IMG/VR virus record: IMGVR_UViG_3300031576_000138
Location: 1 to 41,537 of that record
Source of the DNA: a virus
DNA: 41,537 nucleotides
Direction: 5' to 3' (one strand)
In this document: positions 1,499 to 41,126 of the stretch, in pieces
Position numbering within the stretch: the stretch's first letter is position 1
Layout of the letters: each line of letters begins with the position of its first letter
Position numbers and translations under genes: made by a program
Notes under the pieces: generated by a model
Database searches by the model: none
Told to the model about the DNA's origin: nothing
Seen by the model: the letters and a program-made list of their open reading frames with translations, nothing else

Positions 1499-2811
1499 AG
1501 ACCGTCCGCGCCATGCGGATCGCGCTCTGGCCGATCGGTCGGGCGAAACCATACCCGCAGAACCCGCGGCTCCACTCCGAGACTGAAGTCGCGCGGCTCG
1601 CCCAGTTCATCGGGAGCCTCGGGTTCCTCAAGCCGATCGAGGTGGATGAGCACGGCGTGATCCTGGCCGGCCATCGCCGACATGCGGCCGCGAAGCTGCT
1701 CGCGCTCGCGCGCGTCCCGGTGCTCCAGCACCGGCATCTGTCGGAATCCCAGAAGCGCGCCTACCGCGTGGCGGACAACCGGCTGACACTGGAGGGGGAG
1801 TGGGACCCGGCGCTGCTGAGGCGCGAGGCCAAGTTCCTGCGCTCGAAAGGCTGGGACCTCAAGGCGCTGGCGTTCTCCGACGTCGAGATCCGGAAGCTGC
1901 TCGACGGGCTCCCCAAGGTCGGGCCGGCGGGCAAACCCGGCGAGCCCGAGCAGGAGCCACCGCTGCCGCAGCCGCTCGCGAAGCAGATCACGCGCCTGGG
2001 CGAGATCTGGGCGCTCGGCGAGCACCGGTTGATGTGCGGCGACGCGCTCAAGCGCGAGAACCTGGTGGCGCTCATGGGGAAGGCGCGGGCGAGCGCGGTG
2101 TTCACGGACCCGCCCTACGCGATCTACGGGAGCAGCACCGGGATCGCGGCCGACATCACCGACGACAAGATGGTCCGGCCGTTCTTCCGCGACGTGCTGG
2201 CCGCGTGTGTCGAGACCTGCAAGCCGTTCGCCCACATCTACGTCTGCTGCGACTGGAGAAGCTGGGCCTCGTGGTGGGAGGTCGCGAAGGGGACGGGCAT
2301 CGTCCCGAAGAACATGGTGGTCTGGGACAAGAACGGCGGCCTCGGCGCCAGCTACGCCAACTTCCACGAGTTGCTCTTCTTCGGCTGGTTCATGCCGGTG
2401 GAGAGCATCATGAGCCGCAAGGTGACGGGCGGGCGCACGGTCTACGACCCGAACATCTGGAGGGTCAACCGCGTGCCACCGGCGGGCAGGAAGGGCGGTC
2501 GCGAGCACAACGCCCAGAAGCCGATCGACCTGGTGAGACGGGCGCTGGAGAACTCGACCGACGCCGGCGCGCTGGTGCTCGACTTCTTCGTGGGCTCGGG
2601 GACCACAATGGTCGCGTGCCAGGACCTCGGCCGGCGCTGCTACGGATTAGAGATCGAGCCGCGCTGGTGCGACGTCTCCGTGCTACGGTGGCAGCGGACG
2701 ACCAAGCTAGCGGCAAAGCTGGTGGGCGACGGCAGGACCTTCGATCAGGTCGCGGCCGAGCGGATGAAGGCCCCGCGCAAGAAGGCGACCGCGAGCCGGA
2801 CCGAACGATGA
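1495..2811 (+). CDS. ParB-like N-terminal domain fused to DNA methyltransferase
   Basis: A 438-aa two-domain protein. The first ~100 residues match ParB/sulfiredoxin-like domains (PYPQNPRLHSE, GFLKPIEVDE, LAGHRRHAAAKLL, RVADNRL). The rest is an amino-methyltransferase with DPPY at residue 205 and the SAM-binding motif FVGSG near 365. The order, catalytic motif before SAM motif, is that of beta-class N4-C/N6-A enzymes. It should methylate phage DNA in a sequence-specific manner, probably against restriction or to mark packaging substrate. Start: TTG 1495, in a TTGA overlap after GAGGG; ATG 1513 is the alternative. The same frame is open upstream to 1132, but that part shadows the UDG-like gene. 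Confidence 0.88.
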   Translation: MKTVRAMRIALWPIGRAKPYPQNPRLHSETEVARLAQFIGSLGFLKPIEVDEHGVILAGHRRHAAAKLLALARVPVLQHRHLSESQKRAYRVADNRLTLEGEWDPALLRREAKFLRSKGWDLKALAFSDVEIRKLLDGLPKVGPAGKPGEPEQEPPLPQPLAKQITRLGEIWALGEHRLMCGDALKRENLVALMGKARASAVFTDPPYAIYGSSTGIAADITDDKMVRPFFRDVLAACVETCKPFAHIYVCCDWRSWASWWEVAKGTGIVPKNMVVWDKNGGLGASYANFHELLFFGWFMPVESIMSRKVTGGRTVYDPNIWRVNRVPPAGRKGGREHNAQKPIDLVRRALENSTDAGALVLDFFVGSGTTMVACQDLGRRCYGLEIEPRWCDVSVLRWQRTTKLAAKLVGDGRTFDQVAAERMKAPRKKATASRTER

Positions 2812-2814
2812 GGC

Positions 2815-3369
2815 ATGATGGGCAAGACAATCTCCCTGCGGGCGTTCGCGATCGCGATGGGCGTCGCGCCGAGCGCGGTCCAGAAGGCCCGAGACTCCGG
2901 GCGCATCCCGGTCAACCGCGACGGCACTGTGGACCCGGTGAGGGCGAGGCGCGCCTGGAGGGACAACACGCTGCACAGCAAGCGGCCGCCACGCAAGAGC
3001 AAGGCGCGGGCCAGGCGTGGAGCACCCCCGGACGACGTCGAGGAGGGCAACGGCTCGCTCGGGAGCATGTCGGCCGAATGGCACCGGGCCCGCGCGGCAC
3101 GCGAGGCCATCCAGGCGCGCCTGCTGCAACTCGACCTGGAGCAGCGGCAGGGGAAGCTCCTCGACGCTGAGGAGGTTGGCAGGGCGACCTTCGCGCTCGC
3201 GCGCCGCCTCCGCGACCGCCTCCAGTCGCTCCCGGGGCAGATCGGGCCCGAGGTCATCGGCCTGACCTCAGCGGAGGCGGTGCGGTTGCTCCAGCAGGAG
3301 ATCGACAAGATCTGCGACGAGATCGCGGGCCCAACGCCGGGCAAGAACGGCAAGAAGGAGGACCACTGA
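2815..3369 (+). CDS. terminase small subunit
   Basis: This 184-aa protein has an N-terminal helix-turn-helix (about residues 5-30: LRAFAIAMGVAPSAVQKARDSG), as in lambda Nu1-type small terminases that recognise the packaging site. A basic linker and a long helical domain (WHRARAAREAIQARLLQLDLE..) follow, typical of the subunit that oligomerises and contacts the large terminase. Its place before the large terminase, separated only by a methyltransferase, supports the call. GAGG precedes ATG 2815; ATG 2818 is equally possible. Confidence 0.8.
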   Translation: MMGKTISLRAFAIAMGVAPSAVQKARDSGRIPVNRDGTVDPVRARRAWRDNTLHSKRPPRKSKARARRGAPPDDVEEGNGSLGSMSAEWHRARAAREAIQARLLQLDLEQRQGKLLDAEEVGRATFALARRLRDRLQSLPGQIGPEVIGLTSAEAVRLLQQEIDKICDEIAGPTPGKNGKKEDH

Positions 3370-3813
3370 TGGACGGCCGAACCTCGATCTTCATGCCACA
3401 CGGCGGCAAGTCCTCCCGCACCGACGACTGGTCCACGCCGCGCGAGGTCCTGGAAGCCCTCGACCGCGAGTTCCAGTTCACGAAGGACGCCTGCCCGCTG
3501 GTTGACGGTGCGAAGGCAGGGCTCCCCTTGTTCGGGACCGACGCGCTGCTCGATTCCTGGAAGGGCGAGCGCATCTTCTGCAACCCGCCTTACAGCGGGA
3601 TCGCTCCGTGGCTCGCCAAGGCCCGCCAGGCCACGCTGGCGGTCTTCTTGGTCCCGGCTCGCACGGACACCGACTGGTGGCACCGCTACGCCATGAGGGC
3701 GGACGAAATCCCGGTTCATCCGCGGGCGGCTGAGGTTCGGAGGCGCGAAGACCTCTGCCCCGTTCCCGAGCGTGATCCTGGTCTACAAACAGGCGGACGT
3801 CGTCGATGAGTGA
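3369..3813 (+). CDS. Dam-like phage N6-adenine methyltransferase, frame broken near 3710
   Basis: The intact frame encodes WSTPREVLEALDREFQFTKDAC and CNPPYSGIAPWLAKA, with NPPY as catalytic motif IV, then LVPARTDTDWWH; this is the phage Dam family. After DEI the frame becomes arginine-rich and stops at 3809. Skipping one base in ATCCCGG (3708-3714) opens the next frame, which reads RFIRGRLRF then APFPSVILVY, exactly the expected family C-terminus, and stops at 3811-3813. The gene is thus complete apart from one extra base, from programmed +1 shifting, mutation or sequencing error. Its true stop overlaps the large-terminase start by 8 nt. Confidence 0.8.
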
Positions 3814-5782
3814 GGCGCTCGGACTCGTCTCCGCGTTCGTCGAGGAGAAGTGGAAGCACGGCCTCCGCCGCGAGGTTCGCCTCAGCATCTCGGAGTGGGC
3901 GGACGAGTTCCGCGAACTGACGGGGATCTCCGCGCGCGTCCCCGGGCGCTGGCGCACCTCGCGCACGCCATACCTCCGCGAGGTCATGGACGCGCTCTCT
4001 CCGGAGAACCCGGCCGAGCGCATCGTGTTCATGAAGGGGGCCCAGATCGGCGGGACCGAGGCGGGGAACAACTGGATCGGCTACACCATCCACCGCAACC
4101 CCGGGCCGATGCTCATGGTCCTGCCCACGATCGACGTCGCGCGCAAGGTCTCGAAGCAGCGCATCGCGCCGATGGTCCGATCGAGCGCGGTCCTCCGCGC
4201 GAGGGTGCGCGAGGCGCGCGCGAAGGACTCGGGCAACACCCTGATGGTGAAGGAGTACGAGGGCGGCGTGTTCCTCATGGCGGGGGCGAACTCGTCGGCC
4301 GGCCTGCGCTCGATGCCGATCCGCGACATCTTCTTCGACGAGATCGACGACTACCCCGCCGACGTGGACGGCCAGGGAGACCCGCTCGAACTCGCGGAGG
4401 AGCGCACCGCGACCTTCGAGGGGATACGCAAGATCCTGCTGGTCTCGACGCCGACCGTCAAGGGGATCTCGAAGATCGAGAAGCAATACCTGGAGCGCAG
4501 CGACCAGCGTCGGTTCTACATCCCGTGCCCCCACTGCGAGCACATGGACTTCCTCACCTGGAACGGCCGCGACTGGCTCGCCTCGACTGACGGCACCCAC
4601 CATCGGATCTCTTGGGAGGAGGGCAAGCCAGAGACGGCGCACATGCGCTGCGGCTCGTGCGACGCGCACGTCGCCGAGCGCTACAAGTCGTGGATGCTGC
4701 GCCGCGGCGAGTGGCGGCCGACGATCGGGCCGGGAGGGACCCCGGTGGGCGACGGGAAGACGATCGGGTTTCACCTCTCGGGCCTCTACTCCCCGCTCGG
4801 CTGGAAGTCGTGGGCGGTGTGCGTGGGAAAGTTCCTCAAGGCGAAGAACGACCCGCCGGCGCTCAAGGGTTGGGTGAACCAGACGCTCGGCGAGACCTGG
4901 GAGGAGCGCGGGGACTCGATCGAACCCCACGTCCTGCGCCGGCGCTGCGCGAAGCTGGAGGAGGGCGCGACCGGCTGGCCCCAAGCGGGGCACGTACCGC
5001 ACGGCGTCGGCGTCCTGGTGGCGGCCGTGGACGTTCACCCGGACCGCCTGGAGGCGGTCGTGAAGGGCTATGGCGCGGGCGAGGAGTCGTGGCTGATCGA
5101 CTACCAGCGGCTCGACGGCGACCCCTCGGCGACCAAGATCTGGTCGGAACTCGACCGCTACTTGGCGCAGCAGTTCCCGCACGCGAGTGGGCGCCGGGTC
5201 AGGATCGAGCGCGTCGCGGTGGACTCCGGAGGCGTCAACACTGAAGAGGTCTACCGCTACTGCAAGCCGCGCGTCGGCCGCGGCGTGTTCGCGATCAAGG
5301 GCGGGAGCTTCGCCGGACGGCCGCTCGTGGACCGGCCCTCGCTCAAGAACCGCTACCGGCTCCCGTTATTCGTGCTGTGTGTGGACACGGGCAAGGAGAT
5401 CGTGCTCTCGCGGCTTCAGGTCGATAGCCCCGGTCCCGGCTTCATGCACCTACCGGACTGGGTGGACGACGAGTACCTCGACCAGTTGACCGCCGAGAAG
5501 GGGGTGCGCAAGTACGTGAAGGGCCGGGGCTGGGCCCGGGTCTGGTTGCCGATCAGGACCCGCAACGAGGCCCTCGACCTGGAGGTCTACGCCCTGGCCG
5601 CGCTCTACATCATGGGGCAGCCGTTCATCCGCGAACTGGCCGCGCACGCGGCCGCGCTGTCGAAGCCCACCGACAAACCAGGGCCCAGCGAACCCACGGG
5701 CGGGACGGGGACGCTGCGCGAGCCCGGCAGGGCGTTCCCGCGGCGCCGCCCCCGCGGGTGGGTGGACAAGTGGCGCGAGTGA
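3806..5782 (+). CDS. terminase large subunit (GpA family)
   Basis: A 658-aa packaging ATPase/nuclease of the lambda GpA type. The Walker A-like MKGAQIGGTE lies at residues 76-85, with a Walker B block IFFDEIDD ending in D178-E179. Two Cys pairs, CPHC (241-244) and CGSC (282-285), form the zinc knuckle seen in GpA proteins. The C-terminal nuclease domain includes VAAVDVHPDRLE and VAVDSGGVNTEEVY. It motors DNA into proheads through the portal and cuts the genome. GpA enzymes usually act at cos sites, which would fit discrete ends, but the ends cannot be proven here. Confidence 0.95.
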   Translation: MSEALGLVSAFVEEKWKHGLRREVRLSISEWADEFRELTGISARVPGRWRTSRTPYLREVMDALSPENPAERIVFMKGAQIGGTEAGNNWIGYTIHRNPGPMLMVLPTIDVARKVSKQRIAPMVRSSAVLRARVREARAKDSGNTLMVKEYEGGVFLMAGANSSAGLRSMPIRDIFFDEIDDYPADVDGQGDPLELAEERTATFEGIRKILLVSTPTVKGISKIEKQYLERSDQRRFYIPCPHCEHMDFLTWNGRDWLASTDGTHHRISWEEGKPETAHMRCGSCDAHVAERYKSWMLRRGEWRPTIGPGGTPVGDGKTIGFHLSGLYSPLGWKSWAVCVGKFLKAKNDPPALKGWVNQTLGETWEERGDSIEPHVLRRRCAKLEEGATGWPQAGHVPHGVGVLVAAVDVHPDRLEAVVKGYGAGEESWLIDYQRLDGDPSATKIWSELDRYLAQQFPHASGRRVRIERVAVDSGGVNTEEVYRYCKPRVGRGVFAIKGGSFAGRPLVDRPSLKNRYRLPLFVLCVDTGKEIVLSRLQVDSPGPGFMHLPDWVDDEYLDQLTAEKGVRKYVKGRGWARVWLPIRTRNEALDLEVYALAALYIMGQPFIRELAAHAAALSKPTDKPGPSEPTGGTGTLREPGRAFPRRRPRGWVDKWRE

Positions 5783-5826
5783 GCGACCACTCAAGAAAGC
5801 CGCGCCCCGAGCGGCCAAGCTGGGCG

Positions 5827-5854
5827 TTGACAATCGCCGCGCTCTTGCTAGTAT
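5827..5854 (+). promoter_or_regulatory. sigma70-like promoter upstream of the LexA-like gene
   Basis: TTGACA (5827-5832), a 16-bp spacer and TAGTAT (5849-5854) match the -35 and -10 elements well and stand out against the GC-rich background. Transcription would start around 5861, so ATG 5864 would be nearly leaderless. An imperfect inverted repeat, TTGC (5845) with GCAA (5857), overlaps the -10 element and could be an operator. Confidence 0.65.
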
Positions 5855-5863
5855 GTGCAACAA

Positions 5864-6127
5864 ATGTCTCAACTCAACCCGCTCGCTCGCCGCGTGCTGC
5901 GCTTCATCATCCAGCGCACCCTCCGCGACGGTTTCCCGCCGACCCTGCGGGAGATCGGCGACGCCGTCGGCATGTCGTCAACGAACGGCGTGCGCTACTA
6001 CCTCGGTCTACTCCAGGCCGACGGCCTGATCGAGCGCCGCCCTGGGCTCCGGCGGGCGGTCCGCGTCATGCCGAAAGCAACCCGGTGGCTCGCGAACTGC
6101 AATGGCAGGCGGGCGGGCGCCGCGTAG
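5864..6127 (+). CDS. LexA-type winged-helix DNA-binding protein without peptidase
   Basis: This 87-aa protein matches only the N-terminal DNA-binding domain of LexA: LARRVLRFI, GFPPTLREIGDAVGMSS (recognition helix region), YLGLLQADGLIERRPG and a short wing. LexA's autocleavage/dimerisation domain is missing, so it cannot be inactivated by RecA-stimulated cleavage. It is the first gene after a strong promoter and probably regulates this accessory block, possibly also host SOS-type operators. GTG 5855 is an alternative start but would overlap the -10 element. No SD is seen before either start, fitting a near-leaderless message. Confidence 0.82.
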   Translation: MSQLNPLARRVLRFIIQRTLRDGFPPTLREIGDAVGMSSTNGVRYYLGLLQADGLIERRPGLRRAVRVMPKATRWLANCNGRRAGAA

Positions 6128-9847: not shown

Positions 9848-10119
9848 GCGCGCGAGGTCGGACCGAGTACCTCCGGGCCCGCAAGGGCGACCAGATGGTG
9901 ACCTACATGAGCGACGGTGCCGTGCTCGACTGCGCCCGCGACCCGTTCACGGGCCGCATGGGGCCGTGGCGCGTGGCCGGCGGATGGGACCGCGTGAGGA
10001 CTTCGCTGCCGGCGCTGAGGGCCCAGGTTCTCTCGCGGGGCTGGGAGATCGTGCGCGGGGACGGGCCACGGGCCGGCTCGCCCGCGGCCGCCGCGAGGGT
10101 GGCGAGCCCATGCCGCTGA
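9835..10119 (+). CDS. hypothetical protein, 94 aa
   Basis: GTG 9835 follows AGGGGGACC. The product (MAKLSARGRTEYLRARKGDQMVTYMSDGAVLDCAR..) has a compact alternating strand/helix pattern and a low-complexity Ala/Arg tail that overlaps the Toprim gene start. No family recognised. Confidence 0.55.
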   Translation: MAKLSARGRTEYLRARKGDQMVTYMSDGAVLDCARDPFTGRMGPWRVAGGWDRVRTSLPALRAQVLSRGWEIVRGDGPRAGSPAAAARVASPCR

Positions 10120-11042
10120 TCCAGTACCGCGAGATCAAGCTGCGGCCGAAGGCCCTGGCGACCATCGAGCAGGCGAACGAGATCATCGCCGAGTTCCAGG
10201 CCCAGGGCTTCGACCTCACGCTGCGCCAGTTGTTCTACCAGTTCGTGGCCCGCGGGCTGATCGCCAACACGCAGAGGGAGTACAAGAACCTGGGCTCGAT
10301 CGTGAACGACGGCCGGCTGGCCGGGCTGATCGACTGGGAGACGATCGTGGACCGCACGCGCGACCTGCGCGCACTGCCGCACTGGGACTCGCCTGAGTCA
10401 ATCGTCCAGGCGTGCGCACGGCAGTTCAACTTCGACCTCTGGGAAGACCAGCCGCACTACGTCGAGGTCTGGATCGAGAAGGACGCGCTGGTCGGGGTGA
10501 TCGAGGGCGTCTGCAACCGGCTCGACGTCCCGCACTTCTCCTGCCGCGGCTACACCTCGCAGTCCGAGATGTGGGTGGCGGCGCAGAGGATCATCCAGCG
10601 GGCCGGCGGCCGCGGTCGCATGACGGGCCGGCGCCCGTGCACCATCCTCCACCTCGGCGACCACGACCCGAGCGGCCTGGACATGACCCGCGACATCCAG
10701 GACCGCCTCGACCTGTTCGGCACCGAGGCCCAGGTGGTGCGGCTGGCGCTCAACCAGGACCAGGTCCGCGAGCACAACCCGCCGCCGAACCCCGCCAAGG
10801 TCACGGACAGCCGGGCGGCGAGCTACATCCGCAGGTTCGGCCGCGAGTCGTGGGAACTCGACGCGCTCGACCCGCGCGCGATCGCGGACCTGATCGAGGT
10901 GGCCATCCGCGAGCGTCTCGACGCCGACCGCTGGGACGAGGCCATGGAACGCCAGAGCCAAGCGCGCGCGCTGCTCTCCGGCGCGGCGAAGAACTGGAGC
11001 AAGGTCATGGACGTGATCCGCGAGAACGGAGGGCTGGGATGA
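10110..11042 (+). CDS. Toprim protein resembling type IIB topoisomerase A subunit (Spo11/Mini-A-like)
   Basis: This 310-aa protein combines TLRQLFYQF (T37-Y43), positioned like the catalytic-tyrosine helix of Spo11/TopoVI-A, with a Toprim domain: E123 in WIEKDAL and GDHDPSG with D184 and D186. Full TopoVI-A proteins are longer; short phage and plasmid relatives have been called Mini-A. Expected activity is Mg-dependent tyrosine-mediated DNA breakage, or a derived DNA-binding role in replication, recombination or genome-end handling. No ATPase B subunit is encoded nearby. ATG 10110 is chosen because upstream in-frame sequence shadows the previous gene. ATGA-coupled to the next gene. Confidence 0.75.
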   Translation: MPLIQYREIKLRPKALATIEQANEIIAEFQAQGFDLTLRQLFYQFVARGLIANTQREYKNLGSIVNDGRLAGLIDWETIVDRTRDLRALPHWDSPESIVQACARQFNFDLWEDQPHYVEVWIEKDALVGVIEGVCNRLDVPHFSCRGYTSQSEMWVAAQRIIQRAGGRGRMTGRRPCTILHLGDHDPSGLDMTRDIQDRLDLFGTEAQVVRLALNQDQVREHNPPPNPAKVTDSRAASYIRRFGRESWELDALDPRAIADLIEVAIRERLDADRWDEAMERQSQARALLSGAAKNWSKVMDVIRENGGLG

Positions 11043-36365: not shown

Positions 36366-37204
36366 GCCGCGGGCCGTTCGCCAAGGTCTATCGCTCGCTG
36401 TGGAACGGCACCCTCGGGGCCAAGTGGGAGGGCTGGGCGCTGCTGGTCTACATGCTCGCCCACTGCGACGCCGACGGCAGGATCGACGAGACGCCGGAGG
36501 CGATCGCCAGGAAGTCGGGCCTGCCGCTCGACGTCGTGGAGCGCGGGATCTCGATCCTGGAGGCGCCCGACCAGCACAGCCGCTCGGCCGCGGACAAGGG
36601 GCGCCGCATCGCGCGCCTCGACGACCACCGGGACTGGGGCTGGCAGATCGTCAACTTCGAGCACTACCGCTCCAGCGAGGACCCGCGCGGGGCCGTGGTC
36701 AGGAAGCGCCGCCAGCGTCACGGCGAGTCACGGGAGGTCACGGCGAGTCACGGCATGTCCCGTGAAGCAGAGGCAGAAGCAGATGCAGATAGAGACCAAC
36801 CCCTCCTCCCCGCCGGCGCGGAGCGCTCGCCTGACGGCGCCGCTCCGCCCGCCCTTCCCCTGGGGCTGACGATCCCGGAGGGGGACGCCTCGGTCTTCAT
36901 GACGCTGCCCACGAACCGCCAGGGGGCAGCCGTGGCGGTGCATGAGGGACAGGTCCGGGAGTGGGCCGCGCTCTTCCCGGCGGTGGACGTCCGGCAGGAA
37001 CTCCGCGAGATGCGGGCGTGGCTCCTCGCCAACCCCAGGCAGCGGAAGACGACTCGGGGCATGGTGGCGTTCGTGACCCGGTGGCTGGCGGACGAGCAGG
37101 ACAAGGCCGCCCGCGGTTCACAGCGCGCCCGCGGGCACCGCTCGGGCGTGGACGAGCGCTACCGCCGAGAGAACCTCGGCACGAGAGGAGCGGGGAATGG
37201 CTGA
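36362..37204 (+). CDS. phage replication initiator/replisome organiser
   Basis: A 280-aa protein. The N-terminal winged-helix part (AKVYRSLWNGTLGAKWEGWALLVYML, GRIDETPEAIARKSGLPLDVVERGI, WGWQIVNFEHYR) matches phage replisome-organiser domains. The C-terminal LREMRAWLLANPRQRKT..FVTRWL resembles helicase-loader-binding domains. Like lambda O, it should bind origin iterons and recruit the helicase through the adjacent loader. The linker (residues ~118-145) is encoded by a 10-bp iteron array. GTG start in a GTGA overlap. Confidence 0.82.
   Translation: MSRGPFAKVYRSLWNGTLGAKWEGWALLVYMLAHCDADGRIDETPEAIARKSGLPLDVVERGISILEAPDQHSRSAADKGRRIARLDDHRDWGWQIVNFEHYRSSEDPRGAVVRKRRQRHGESREVTASHGMSREAEAEADADRDQPLLPAGAERSPDGAAPPALPLGLTIPEGDASVFMTLPTNRQGAAVAVHEGQVREWAALFPAVDVRQELREMRAWLLANPRQRKTTRGMVAFVTRWLADEQDKAARGSQRARGHRSGVDERYRRENLGTRGAGNG
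36717..36766. repeat. 10-bp iteron array, candidate replication origin
   Basis: GTCACGG recurs at 36717, 36727, 36737 and 36747, with a degenerate fifth unit (GTCCCGT) at 36757. The 10-bp period is one helical turn and not a multiple of three, so it is not driven by a protein repeat. A purine-rich, less GC-rich tract of GCAGA(G/A/T) repeats follows (36766-36795). Confidence 0.75.
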
Positions 37205-38129
37205 GAAGGAACAACCGGAAGCCTTCAGGGAATCCGAGCAGATCGCCGCTCGGGCCGAGTCGGCCGTCTCCGCGGCGGGGCTCACGGCCCGCGCGCGACG
37301 CGGTGCTCAAGATCCTGGAGCGATACGAGCTCCGGGGTCTGCCCAAGATGCGGCCACGAGTCCCTACAGGCCGGCGCCGCAAATCTATCGCTGCGAGCAG
37401 TGCCAAAGAGATGAAGCCGAAGCCACCCGCGTCGCCGGCGAGGCGGCCAACATCCTGGCGGCTATGCCGGGGCTCTCGGATCGCGCGCTGCGTCGCTCGG
37501 GAGTCAGCACGCGCGAGCGTTCGGCGAGCCTGGATCTCGTGCCCGCCAACATCCGCCGGCTCTTCGGTGCCCCCGCGCTGGGCGTCGAAGCGCTCATGGC
37601 GGGCGAGGAAGTCCGCCGCGGCTTCGGCCTTTCTGGAGGCGCTGGGTGCGGGAAGACCTTCGCCTTGGTAGCGCTCTTCAAGGCGGCCGTCGAAGCGCGG
37701 CTCAGGACTCGCGCCCCCAAGATCGGGCGCGCCGCGTTGCTCACCTGGCTCGCGTGGACGTCGTGGCCCACCGAGGTCAACGACCTGCGGGTCATGAGCA
37801 CGCAGGAGGAGGGGCTTGTGGAGGCGCGCGCGCGCATCCTCAGGCTCAGCAAGATCGAGGCGCTGGTGATCGACGACCTCGGCGTCGAGCGGCTGCGCGG
37901 CACCTACGAGGACGACTGGGCGGCCTCGCAGTTGGACGCACTCGTGGACGCGCGCTACAACGAGATGCTGCCGACCTGGTACACGACGAACCTCACCGCC
38001 GACGAGCTTCAGGATCGGTACGGCTCGCGACTATACTCGCGCCTGTGCGCCGAGAACCCGCTGCGCGCGGTCCCGGGCCCCGACCTCAGGCTGGTGGGCC
38101 GAAGCACCGCCGCGCCGGAGGCCCCATGA
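37197..38129 (+). CDS. DnaC-like helicase loader (AAA+ ATPase)
   Basis: A 310-aa protein with Walker A GGAGCGKT (K153), Walker B ALVIDDLG (D226-D227) and a sensor-like region TWYTTNLT; it should load the host helicase at the origin bound by the upstream initiator. N-terminal part: CEQC (about residue 67) suggests a zinc ribbon. Between 37296 and about 37365 another frame is better coding (RDAVLKILERYELRG) and a third gives CPRCGHE, so several one-base shifts may disguise the true N-terminus, including the missing Cys pair. Net frame is preserved. Confidence 0.82.
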   Translation: MAEKEQPEAFRESEQIAARAESAVSAAGLTARARRGAQDPGAIRAPGSAQDAATSPYRPAPQIYRCEQCQRDEAEATRVAGEAANILAAMPGLSDRALRRSGVSTRERSASLDLVPANIRRLFGAPALGVEALMAGEEVRRGFGLSGGAGCGKTFALVALFKAAVEARLRTRAPKIGRAALLTWLAWTSWPTEVNDLRVMSTQEEGLVEARARILRLSKIEALVIDDLGVERLRGTYEDDWAASQLDALVDARYNEMLPTWYTTNLTADELQDRYGSRLYSRLCAENPLRAVPGPDLRLVGRSTAAPEAP

Positions 38130-38763: not shown

Positions 38764-38806
38764 GTGGGGCCGTGCCGGGAGAGCCGAGAACAGCCAAGGA
38801 GGAAAG

Positions 38807-38869
38807 ATGAACCTGATCGAACAAGCCGACCCGCGAGAGGGCCGTGCATCGTCGGAGCCAGCTACTTAG
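38807..38869 (+). CDS. 20-aa leader peptide candidate
   Basis: ATG 38807 follows a perfect AAGGAGGAAAG and the frame (MNLIEQADPREGRASSEPAT) ends at TAG 38867-38869, whose last base begins the GTG of the CsrA-like gene. It may act as a coupled leader for that gene. Confidence 0.35.
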   Translation: MNLIEQADPREGRASSEPAT

Positions 38870-39315
38870 TGACCAACACGAGGAAGTTCGGACCCAAGCC
38901 GTCCGGCACGCTGCTGATCTGGCGCCGACCTGGCAAGGGGCTGTTCATCGGCCGCAGCATCCGCGTGACGATCCTCGACTGCACGCACTCGACGGTTCGG
39001 CTCGCCGTCGAGGCCCCGCTGGCGGTGGTCGTGAGTGCGGGCGACGTCGGCCTGGAGGACCACCTCGCGCGCCAGCTTGATCGGGACACCCGGGCGCCCG
39101 TTGATGGGAAGGATCTGACCACCGTCGCGCTGCTCAAGGACCAGGCTGCGAAGCTCGGGCGCGAGGCGACCATCGTCTACGTCGGCGAGGACGAGGGGCA
39201 GCGCGCGTCGCTCTCAATCGACGCCCCCCTGAACGTGGCGGTGACGCGCGACGACTTCAGCTTCGAGGAGCACATGACCGTCCAGACCAGGCGCGAAGGC
39301 GGGGAACGCGGGTGA
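38869..39315 (+). CDS. tandem CsrA/RsmA-like RNA-binding protein
   Basis: A 148-aa protein with two CsrA folds in one chain. Half 1 (residues 15-68): LLIWRRPGKGLFIG, IRVTIL, VRLAVEAPLAVVV. Half 2 (residues 84-137): LLKDQAAKLG, ATIVYV, ASLSIDAPLNVAVTRDD. Against E. coli CsrA, half 1 keeps the beta-1 arginines (R19/R20 for R6/R7) but has A57 for R44. Half 2 has Leu-Leu at 88-89 for R6/R7 but keeps R127 for R44. It would bind GGA-type mRNA hairpins and control translation of phage or host messages. GTG start; GTGA-coupled to the HNH gene. Confidence 0.78.
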   Translation: MTNTRKFGPKPSGTLLIWRRPGKGLFIGRSIRVTILDCTHSTVRLAVEAPLAVVVSAGDVGLEDHLARQLDRDTRAPVDGKDLTTVALLKDQAAKLGREATIVYVGEDEGQRASLSIDAPLNVAVTRDDFSFEEHMTVQTRREGGERG

Positions 39316-39782
39316 GCCCCATCCGGCCCGAGAACCGGGCGCTGTATCCGAGCGACTGGAAGCGGATCTCGGCCCGCATCCGCGCGAGCTCCGCTGGCCG
39401 CTGCGAGTGCGAGGGCGAGTGCGGGCTTCACCAGCCCTTGCCGGTCTGTGAATGCGGCGACCCGCAGCGCAACCACCAGGACGCAAGCGGTAAGTGCCTC
39501 CTGAGGAGCCACGACGCCCCATGCCTAGCCTACCGCTACTCTCACCACGAGCTTCGACGCTGCGAGGAGCGTGACGGGGAGAAGGCCTCGTGGGCCCGCG
39601 GGACCGTCGTGCTGACCGTGGCCCACCTGAACCACGAGCCGAGCGACTGCCGGGATGAGAACCTCAGAGCTATGTGCCAGCGCTGCCACAACCGCTACGA
39701 TCGCCCGCACCGCAACGCGAACGCTGCTCAGACCAGGCGCGCGAAGAAGGGCGTGGTCGAGATGTTCGAGGCTCGCAGATGA
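39312..39782 (+). CDS. HNH endonuclease
   Basis: A 156-aa protein: NRALYPSDWKRISARIRASSAGRCECEG.. , CGLHQ, a central insertion with extra Cys/His (VCECGDPQRNHQ), then VVLTVAHLNHEPSD and ENLRAMCQRCHNRYD. TVAHLNH supplies the catalytic His/Asn and CQRCHNRYD the last His plus zinc cysteines. HNH enzymes near phage ends often assist packaging; here it could equally be a replication-module or free-standing nuclease. ATGA-coupled to the next gene. Confidence 0.85.
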   Translation: MSPIRPENRALYPSDWKRISARIRASSAGRCECEGECGLHQPLPVCECGDPQRNHQDASGKCLLRSHDAPCLAYRYSHHELRRCEERDGEKASWARGTVVLTVAHLNHEPSDCRDENLRAMCQRCHNRYDRPHRNANAAQTRRAKKGVVEMFEARR

Positions 39783-40198: not shown

Positions 40199-40404
40199 GC
40201 AACTACACGAGGAAGTTCCACCGCGCGCAGCGCTACCGGCACGCGGCGCACCGCCGCCGACGGCAACCGCACCCGCCGCCGCCGATCGCGCTAGACGTCT
40301 TCCAGGACAATCGCCAGAGCCACAAGAAGGCGCGCCACGGCGGCGTCGTCTCGACCTTGCTCTCGATCGCGGCCTTGTGCGGCTTCGCGAGGCGGAGGAC
40401 CTGA
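40195..40404 (+). CDS. hypothetical basic protein, 69 aa
   Basis: MSNYTRKFHRAQRYRHAAHRRRRQPHPPPP is strongly basic with a proline run, followed by a polar stretch and a short hydrophobic segment (VVSTLLSIAALCGFA). Frame continues upstream in phase to 40087, so an earlier start is possible. Its TGA shares one base with the next ATG. Confidence 0.5.
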   Translation: MSNYTRKFHRAQRYRHAAHRRRRQPHPPPPIALDVFQDNRQSHKKARHGGVVSTLLSIAALCGFARRRT

Positions 40405-41126
40405 TGCAAGTCGGCCTCAACGTGGACGCCTCGCGGCTGCTGCTGCGGCTTCGGAACCCGGAGAAGCGGATTGCGTTCGCGATCGACAACTCGCTGAATG
40501 ACACCATCAAGGTCGCGCAGCGGGCGGTGCAGCTTCACGTCCAGGACGAGTTCGAGATCCGCAAGCCAACCTTCTTCTTCGGTGGCGCAGCCGGTGGAGG
40601 TCGGGGAGGCGCGGCGGCGCGCGTCGAGTTCGCGAGCGTCCGCAAGGGCAGGCACTACGCCGAGATCGCGGTCGGGCGATTCCGCCGCCTGCTGCTGCCG
40701 CTCTTCGAGCGCGGCGGTCTCCGCGAGCCGTTCAAGGGCAAGGAGTCGGTTGCCGTACCCGTCGAGGCCCGGGCGACGAAGAGCGCGAGCATCCCCGAGG
40801 AGTTGTTCGTGCAGCGGCTCGCGTTCCGCCGGCCCAAGGCCACTACGGTGGAGACCCGGAGGGCACGGAGCCAACGGAGCCGGGGCAAGGTCTGGGAGGG
40901 GAAGCTCGGGAGCTATCTCATCCCGCGCATGGGCATCTTCCAGCGCGTGACGGCGGCAGTGAGCCGCGTGCTGTACGTGTTCGCGCGCCCGTTCCAGATC
41001 CCGCCCGGGAGGCTGAAGTTCGTCGAGACCGTCCACGGTGTCGCGCGACGCGTATTCCCCGAGAGCCTGCACCGGCACGTCCGCGAGACGCTGGAGTTCC
41101 ACGCACGTAGAGGAGGTCGGAGGTGA
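40404..41126 (+). CDS. minor tail protein Z-like protein
   Basis: A 240-aa protein: RIAFAIDNSLNDTIKVAQRAVQLHVQDEF and IRKPTFFFGG match the start of gpZ-like minor tail proteins, which help connect tails to heads. Later parts are basic and helical, ending RETLEFHARRGGRR. On the circular map it lies at the distal end of the early module, close to the terminase block and away from the other tail genes. TGATG coupling upstream, GTGA downstream. Confidence 0.65.
   Translation: MQVGLNVDASRLLLRLRNPEKRIAFAIDNSLNDTIKVAQRAVQLHVQDEFEIRKPTFFFGGAAGGGRGGAAARVEFASVRKGRHYAEIAVGRFRRLLLPLFERGGLREPFKGKESVAVPVEARATKSASIPEELFVQRLAFRRPKATTVETRRARSQRSRGKVWEGKLGSYLIPRMGIFQRVTAAVSRVLYVFARPFQIPPGRLKFVETVHGVARRVFPESLHRHVRETLEFHARRGGRR

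Follow-up and report, generated by a model that had tools for sequence, protein, structure and literature searches.

Two CsrA domains in a single phage protein

CsrA is the textbook bivalent RNA-binding dimer, known as a homodimer of single domains of ~60-75 aa with two identical sites (PMC7366521). So far, how much its regulation depends on two sites has been examined by means of engineered dimers with one site. The window, that is, the whole stretch of 41,537 b that was analysed (69% GC), is an uncultivated tailed-phage contig from an IMG/VR record, with lambda-type terminase, major capsid and tail genes.

The gene of interest (Table 1) encodes a tandem CsrA of 148 aa that, as a whole protein, matched the Pfam family CsrA (PF02599) over the cut-off (E 6.7e-11) in two stretches. 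Its reading frame was coding-biased, with a GC content of 0.68/0.51/0.84 by codon position, as measured on the longer ORF 38764-39315. When each half of the four family members described below was scanned separately against 24,736 Pfam models, CsrA was the best family for all eight halves, several of them being weak matches (E 0.08-0.18) and others reaching 1e-8. Half 2 alone was a weak match in the window protein (E 0.086) and gave E 2e-8 in the L103 relative and 1.6e-5 in L102; in one relative the reverse was found, half 1 and not half 2 being the weak one. The similarity between half 1 and half 2 was higher than in all 2000 shuffles in each of the four proteins (z 7.9-12.4), so the two copies of CsrA are not a product of chance. 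A chance or misread ORF at 38869-39315 was discarded on the basis of the Pfam match, the GC content by codon position, the scans of both halves and the shuffle test.

The first-pass annotation had described both halves as aligning to E. coli CsrA almost without gaps, and this was borne out: the core of half 1 aligned gapless, and half 2 carried one additional residue in the loop before beta-4. Members of PF02599 are described by a single domain of ~65-75 aa with two identical sites and by Arg44 in every protomer. The chain found here has 148 aa and two domains with, as judged by sequence, non-identical sites, and Arg44 is present in half 2 only (4/4), its place in half 1 being taken by A/G/G/G. 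Therefore, the protein is best described as a divergent two-domain derivative of the CsrA/RsmA family and an atypical member of it.

Table 1. Features of the tandem CsrA locus in the window (amino acids numbered as in the 148-aa protein)
Feature	Position	Strand	Remarks
DnaC-like helicase loader	37197..38129	+	Upstream of CsrA; 52% identical copy upstream of tandem CsrA in L102
Possible leader: AAGGAGGAAAG Shine-Dalgarno and 20-codon ORF (ATG 38807)	38796..38869	+	Inferred from direct reading
Tandem (two-domain, single-chain) CsrA gene, 148 aa	38869..39315	+	GTG start, TGA stop
Half 1, CsrA domain, residues 14-74	38908..39090	+	Pfam CsrA E 9.5e-8 alone; AlphaFold2 model
R19-R20 (CsrA R6-R7), beta-1 half of putative retained RNA site	38923..38928	+	R6 in 4/4, R7 in 2/4
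A57 at R44 position, half 1 (lost)	39037..39039	+	G in three relatives
Half 2, CsrA domain, residues 81-143	39109..39297	+	Pfam CsrA E 0.086 alone; AlphaFold2 model
L88-L89 at R6-R7 position, half 2 (lost)	39130..39135	+	
R127 at R44 position, half 2	39247..39249	+	Within VAVTRDDF, kept in 4/4
HNH endonuclease	39312..39782	+	GTG overlaps CsrA stop (GTGA); same arrangement in sister L013
phrog_1924 tail-type protein	40377..41126	+	Downstream; follows CsrA in L102 (57%) and single-domain CsrA in L014 (42%)

The tandem CsrA in other phages

Three more full-length tandem CsrAs, 58, 48 and 33% identical to the window protein, were found in other uncultivated phages, and the protein is carried by a small family of soil-type phages. 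The sister phage L013 (IMGVR_UViG_3300031949_000085; 58% identity over the alignment and 60% in the best segment) and IMGVR_UViG_3300027897_000003 (33%) were reached through terminase relatives, and IMGVR_UViG_3300044983_000114 (48%) through an alignment query. A single-sequence query of the viral contigs returned no close relatives, and all members surfaced via the terminase and alignment queries only. Repeat scans with four-sequence alignments did not find a fifth member, no tandem CsrA was found among 199 genomes from the phylum of the Elusimicrobiota MAG mentioned below, and the phage and plasmid collections gave weak matches to CsrA-type genes only, none with 80% query coverage. As the scans depend on conserved peptide patterns, the family has at least four members.

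Predicted structure of the tandem protein

AlphaFold2 models of the single chain were built from a four-row alignment for the window protein (pLDDT 87.4, pTM 0.81) and for L102 (pLDDT 90.9, pTM 0.84). In both models, two CsrA sets of strands and helix were found within one compact unit. The two sets were complete in the window model, with five strands plus a helix in half 1 (strands 12-19, 24-27, 31-38, 42-50 and 55-57, helix 62-74) and in half 2 (strands 81-89, 93-96, 100-107, 113-120 and 125-127, helix 132-143), and beta-5 of half 1 in L102 was too short to count as a strand. The five-strand plus helix protomer fold of PF02599 is thus present as a prediction. The fold of half 2 had been proposed as a check at the outset, and a CsrA fold was predicted to form: residues 67-123 of L102 were superimposed by VIA-align on CsrA 1vpz with a Z of 5.2 (55 residues, 2.3 A), and RsmE matched residues 69-123 (Z 4.6).

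RsmN/RsmF structures (4krw, 4k59, 4kji) matched both models from beta-1 of half 1 to beta-5 of half 2 (Z 5.1-6.0, 23-30% identity); as the matched stretch follows the order of the sequence, this match speaks for a possible geometry of the retained site and not for a preference over the other site. Unrelated, non-CsrA beta proteins scored equal to or higher than the CsrA chains in the VIA re-ranking, and the structural matches therefore speak for the fold only when taken with the sequence data. A Foldseek search of the model against the PDB gave no significant match. In a Foldseek-type search of BFVD, six viral models were recovered at E <= 0.001, one of them named carbon storage regulator. This 114-aa model (A0A6J5RUQ1) and a second one of 88 aa (A0A6G5YEX0) aligned over large parts of the double-CsrA model. 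The former overlapped both halves with a low score, so other double CsrA forms may exist.

Retained and lost RNA-contact residues

Residues are given hereafter in E. coli CsrA numbering, in the order window/L013/L102/L103. In RsmE, chain A provides T5 and R6 for an RNA site to which chain B contributes Q29, R31, R44, E46 and I47 (PMC4005645), and L4 and R44 are the critical residues of CsrA (PMC7652899). The first-pass annotation had equated R19/R20 and A57 with R6/R7 and R44 of half 1, and L88/L89 and R127 with the same positions of half 2, and these assignments were correct. In half 1, residue 4 was I/I/I/I, R6 was R/R/R/R, R7 was R/A/R/E and residue 44 was A/G/G/G. In half 2, residue 6 was L/L/I/V, residue 7 was L/L/E/P, residue 44 was R/R/R/R and residue 46 was D/D/D/D, with V40, V42, R44 and the change of E46 to D kept in all four. 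R6 of half 2 was thus lost in three of the four proteins; the fourth, L103, is ambiguous, as the 14-row alignment allows an RR pair at positions 6-7 with a loop shortened by two residues.

From the aligned sequences, the site made of half-1 beta-1 and half-2 beta-5 keeps its key residues in all four proteins, and the mirror site is devoid of R44 in all four. The recurrence of such a complementary pattern among homologues had been suggested as a second check, and it was seen in the three relatives, R44 being lost from half 1 and kept in half 2 in 4/4. As the four tandem CsrAs are of common ancestry, these losses may represent a single event.

At residue 31, half 1 has R/R/K/E and half 2 has S/S/T/R; the residue is retained in the former and lost from the latter in three of the four. 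This RNA-stem contact, located on the chain that provides R44, is the reverse of a clean complementary pattern, and the retained site may therefore read RNA differently, accepting other stems or single-stranded RNA. Other RNA contacts were also changed, with H43 replaced by T/S and T5 by W in half 1. The initial proposal of one intact composite site therefore stood for the L4-type hydrophobic residue, R6 and R44, in four diverged proteins and two models, and did not stand for R7 of half 1, which is variable, or for residue 31, which is opposed.

A putative single-site CsrA and its alternatives

We consider that these data are best explained, with a fair degree of probability, by a fused CsrA that folds on itself, keeps one working GGA site and acts as a monovalent translational repressor. 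A phage CsrA gene would have been duplicated head to tail and then fused, and the fused chain would fold like the two-protomer CsrA dimer, both the fold and the pseudo-dimer geometry being predictions. One working GGA-binding site would be built from half-1 beta-1 (R6) and half-2 beta-5 (R44), and the mirror site (half-2 beta-1, half-1 beta-5) would have decayed. The protein would then cover one GGA, most simply at the Shine-Dalgarno, as CsrA does on hfq. We infer in this way a monomeric state, RNA binding, monovalency and a target of this kind. CsrA dimers with one site, made in the laboratory, do not fully repress the two-site glgC leader, and one known CsrA target, hfq, is controlled through a single site (PMC7652899). 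That the protein is a natural, covalent, single-chain monovalent CsrA, with one decayed site, which represses or competes at a single GGA without bridging, is put forward more tentatively, as something a little short of an even chance.

The strong Shine-Dalgarno AAGGAGGAAAG ahead of the 20-codon ORF (38807-38869) holds two GGA, and the CsrA gene starts with a GTG that overlaps the TAG stop of this ORF. Translational coupling of this leader ORF with the CsrA gene, or autoregulation, is possible. When the leaders of the four tandem CsrA genes were inspected for GGA and hairpins, GGA was found near the starts, in ordinary Shine-Dalgarno sequences only.

The pattern of residues would be fitted equally well if half 1 paired with half 2 of another chain, in a domain-swapped or head-to-tail dimer that would have two working sites and be bivalent, and the ordinary CsrA dimer is likewise intertwined and swapped (PMC7366521; PMC4005645). 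However, the single chain was modelled as a compact unit in both proteins (pTM 0.81, 0.84), which an isolated swapped chain would not have to yield, and we regard a dimer of this kind as unlikely.

The fused chain could alternatively be a monovalent competitor on the GGA of host mRNAs or of CsrB-type sRNAs, weakening the Csr/Rsm circuit of the host during infection. There is a precedent on a mobile element, the plasmid protein RsmQ, which binds GGA sequences and portions of the host Rsm sRNAs (PMC9928087), and single-site R44A heterodimers repress glgC poorly (PMC7652899). In contrast, the MAG binned with a related phage contig has no CsrA match outside this contig, although the MAG is possibly incomplete and binning gives weak evidence of a host; this role is, in our view, rather unlikely. 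The first-pass annotation had proposed either an antagonist or retuner of host CsrA or a dedicated regulator of one phage message. Antagonism or retuning by the tandem CsrA would be conceivable, and regulation of one phage message is at least as likely. The chain would provide its own dimer interface, so the poisoning of host CsrA at the subunit level is unlikely.

A role not related to RNA, in which the CsrA pair would be a scaffold that binds proteins and the arginines still present would serve another purpose, would agree with the changed contacts (R31 of half 2, H43, T5 and R7 of half 1), but it is very improbable, as the best-conserved feature is the pair of arginines on which GGA binding depends most, along with the V40/V42 backbone strand around them.

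Origin and selection

A single-domain CsrA was found in L014, the phage contig binned with the Elusimicrobia MAG (positions 3900-4170), and it keeps R6/R7 as well as R44 (VTRDDF). It occupies the corresponding place, ahead of the phrog_1924 gene (42%), and the tail genes of L014 fall into the same families. The frame of this CsrA gene is interrupted near position 4010, either by a sequencing error or because the gene is dead, and either may hold. In a 14-row tree from a short alignment, the eight halves and the L014 CsrA were placed apart from the ordinary CsrAs with support of 94/97, this fork being drawn open and no fork being starred. The simplest account is a duplication and fusion within the phage lineage followed by split loss, and the intact R6/R7 and R44 of the syntenic single-domain CsrA fit such an order. 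The dN/dS ratio between the CsrA genes of the window and the sister phage L013 was 0.53 (0.355/0.665). Therefore, the gene is retained under constraint by purifying selection.

An ordinary single-domain CsrA with intact R6, R7 and R44 was also detected in phage G026, which has a related terminase (L098, positions 1438-1662, - strand).

Comparison with known CsrA proteins

No relevant report of a tandem, fused or monomeric CsrA was found in the literature available without subscription, where CsrA is given as a single-domain homodimer. Phages such as BcepMigl, Pondi, VvAW1 and those of the Pseudomonas F116 type encode CsrAs with the same domain as each half described here, but those examined have a single domain and 64-70 aa, compared to the 148 aa of the two-domain chain. 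In Vibrio phage VvAW1, csrA directly adjoins an HNH gene, as it does in the window.

RsmN/RsmF is a rearranged CsrA, and its compact unit can be aligned with the stretch from half-1 beta-1 through half-2 beta-5 of our models. RsmN forms a homodimer with two sites and carries an additional helix between beta-2 and beta-3 (PMC3791407), whereas this helix is absent from either half of both models and both halves belong here to one chain. A further parallel would be the E. coli CsrA dimer in which one protomer was engineered to carry R44A (Mercante 2009, via PMC7652899), which has one working and one dead site and cannot bridge; it is a two-chain laboratory construct, whereas the tandem CsrA would be natural, covalent and present in several phages. 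RsmQ is, like the tandem protein, a CsrA homologue on a mobile element, and it needs R44 for efficient binding, but it has a single domain and forms homodimers as well as heterodimers with host Rsm proteins (PMC9928087).

If the single-site reading is true, a natural one-site, single-chain CsrA makes the dependence on two sites directly testable, and it shows how phages rebuild a global regulator. Complementary loss after an internal duplication would also be a clean case, with a related single-domain form for comparison.

Gene neighbourhood

The gene context of the tandem CsrAs is partly common, with the DnaC-like and phrog_1924 genes in L102 and the HNH gene in L013. In the latter, the stop of CsrA and the start of HNH overlap (GTGA) around position 3432. 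As the same overlap is found in the window, CsrA and HNH are probably translationally coupled.

Other genes were observed further away in these phages. A gene matching both ParB-like nuclease and DNA methyltransferase families was found at positions 1132-2811 of the window, ahead of the terminase, and at 1773-3329 of L120, shortly after the tandem CsrA in G013. The window also has a match to a DNA topoisomerase family at 9966-11042 (phrog_6247, 2e-110), an unexpected enzyme in a phage of 41 kb. In L118, the tail genes at 1540-5876 match the Rcc01698-like and DUF2793 families, which we take to be families of alphaproteobacterial phages and gene transfer agents and which are a possible clue to the host.
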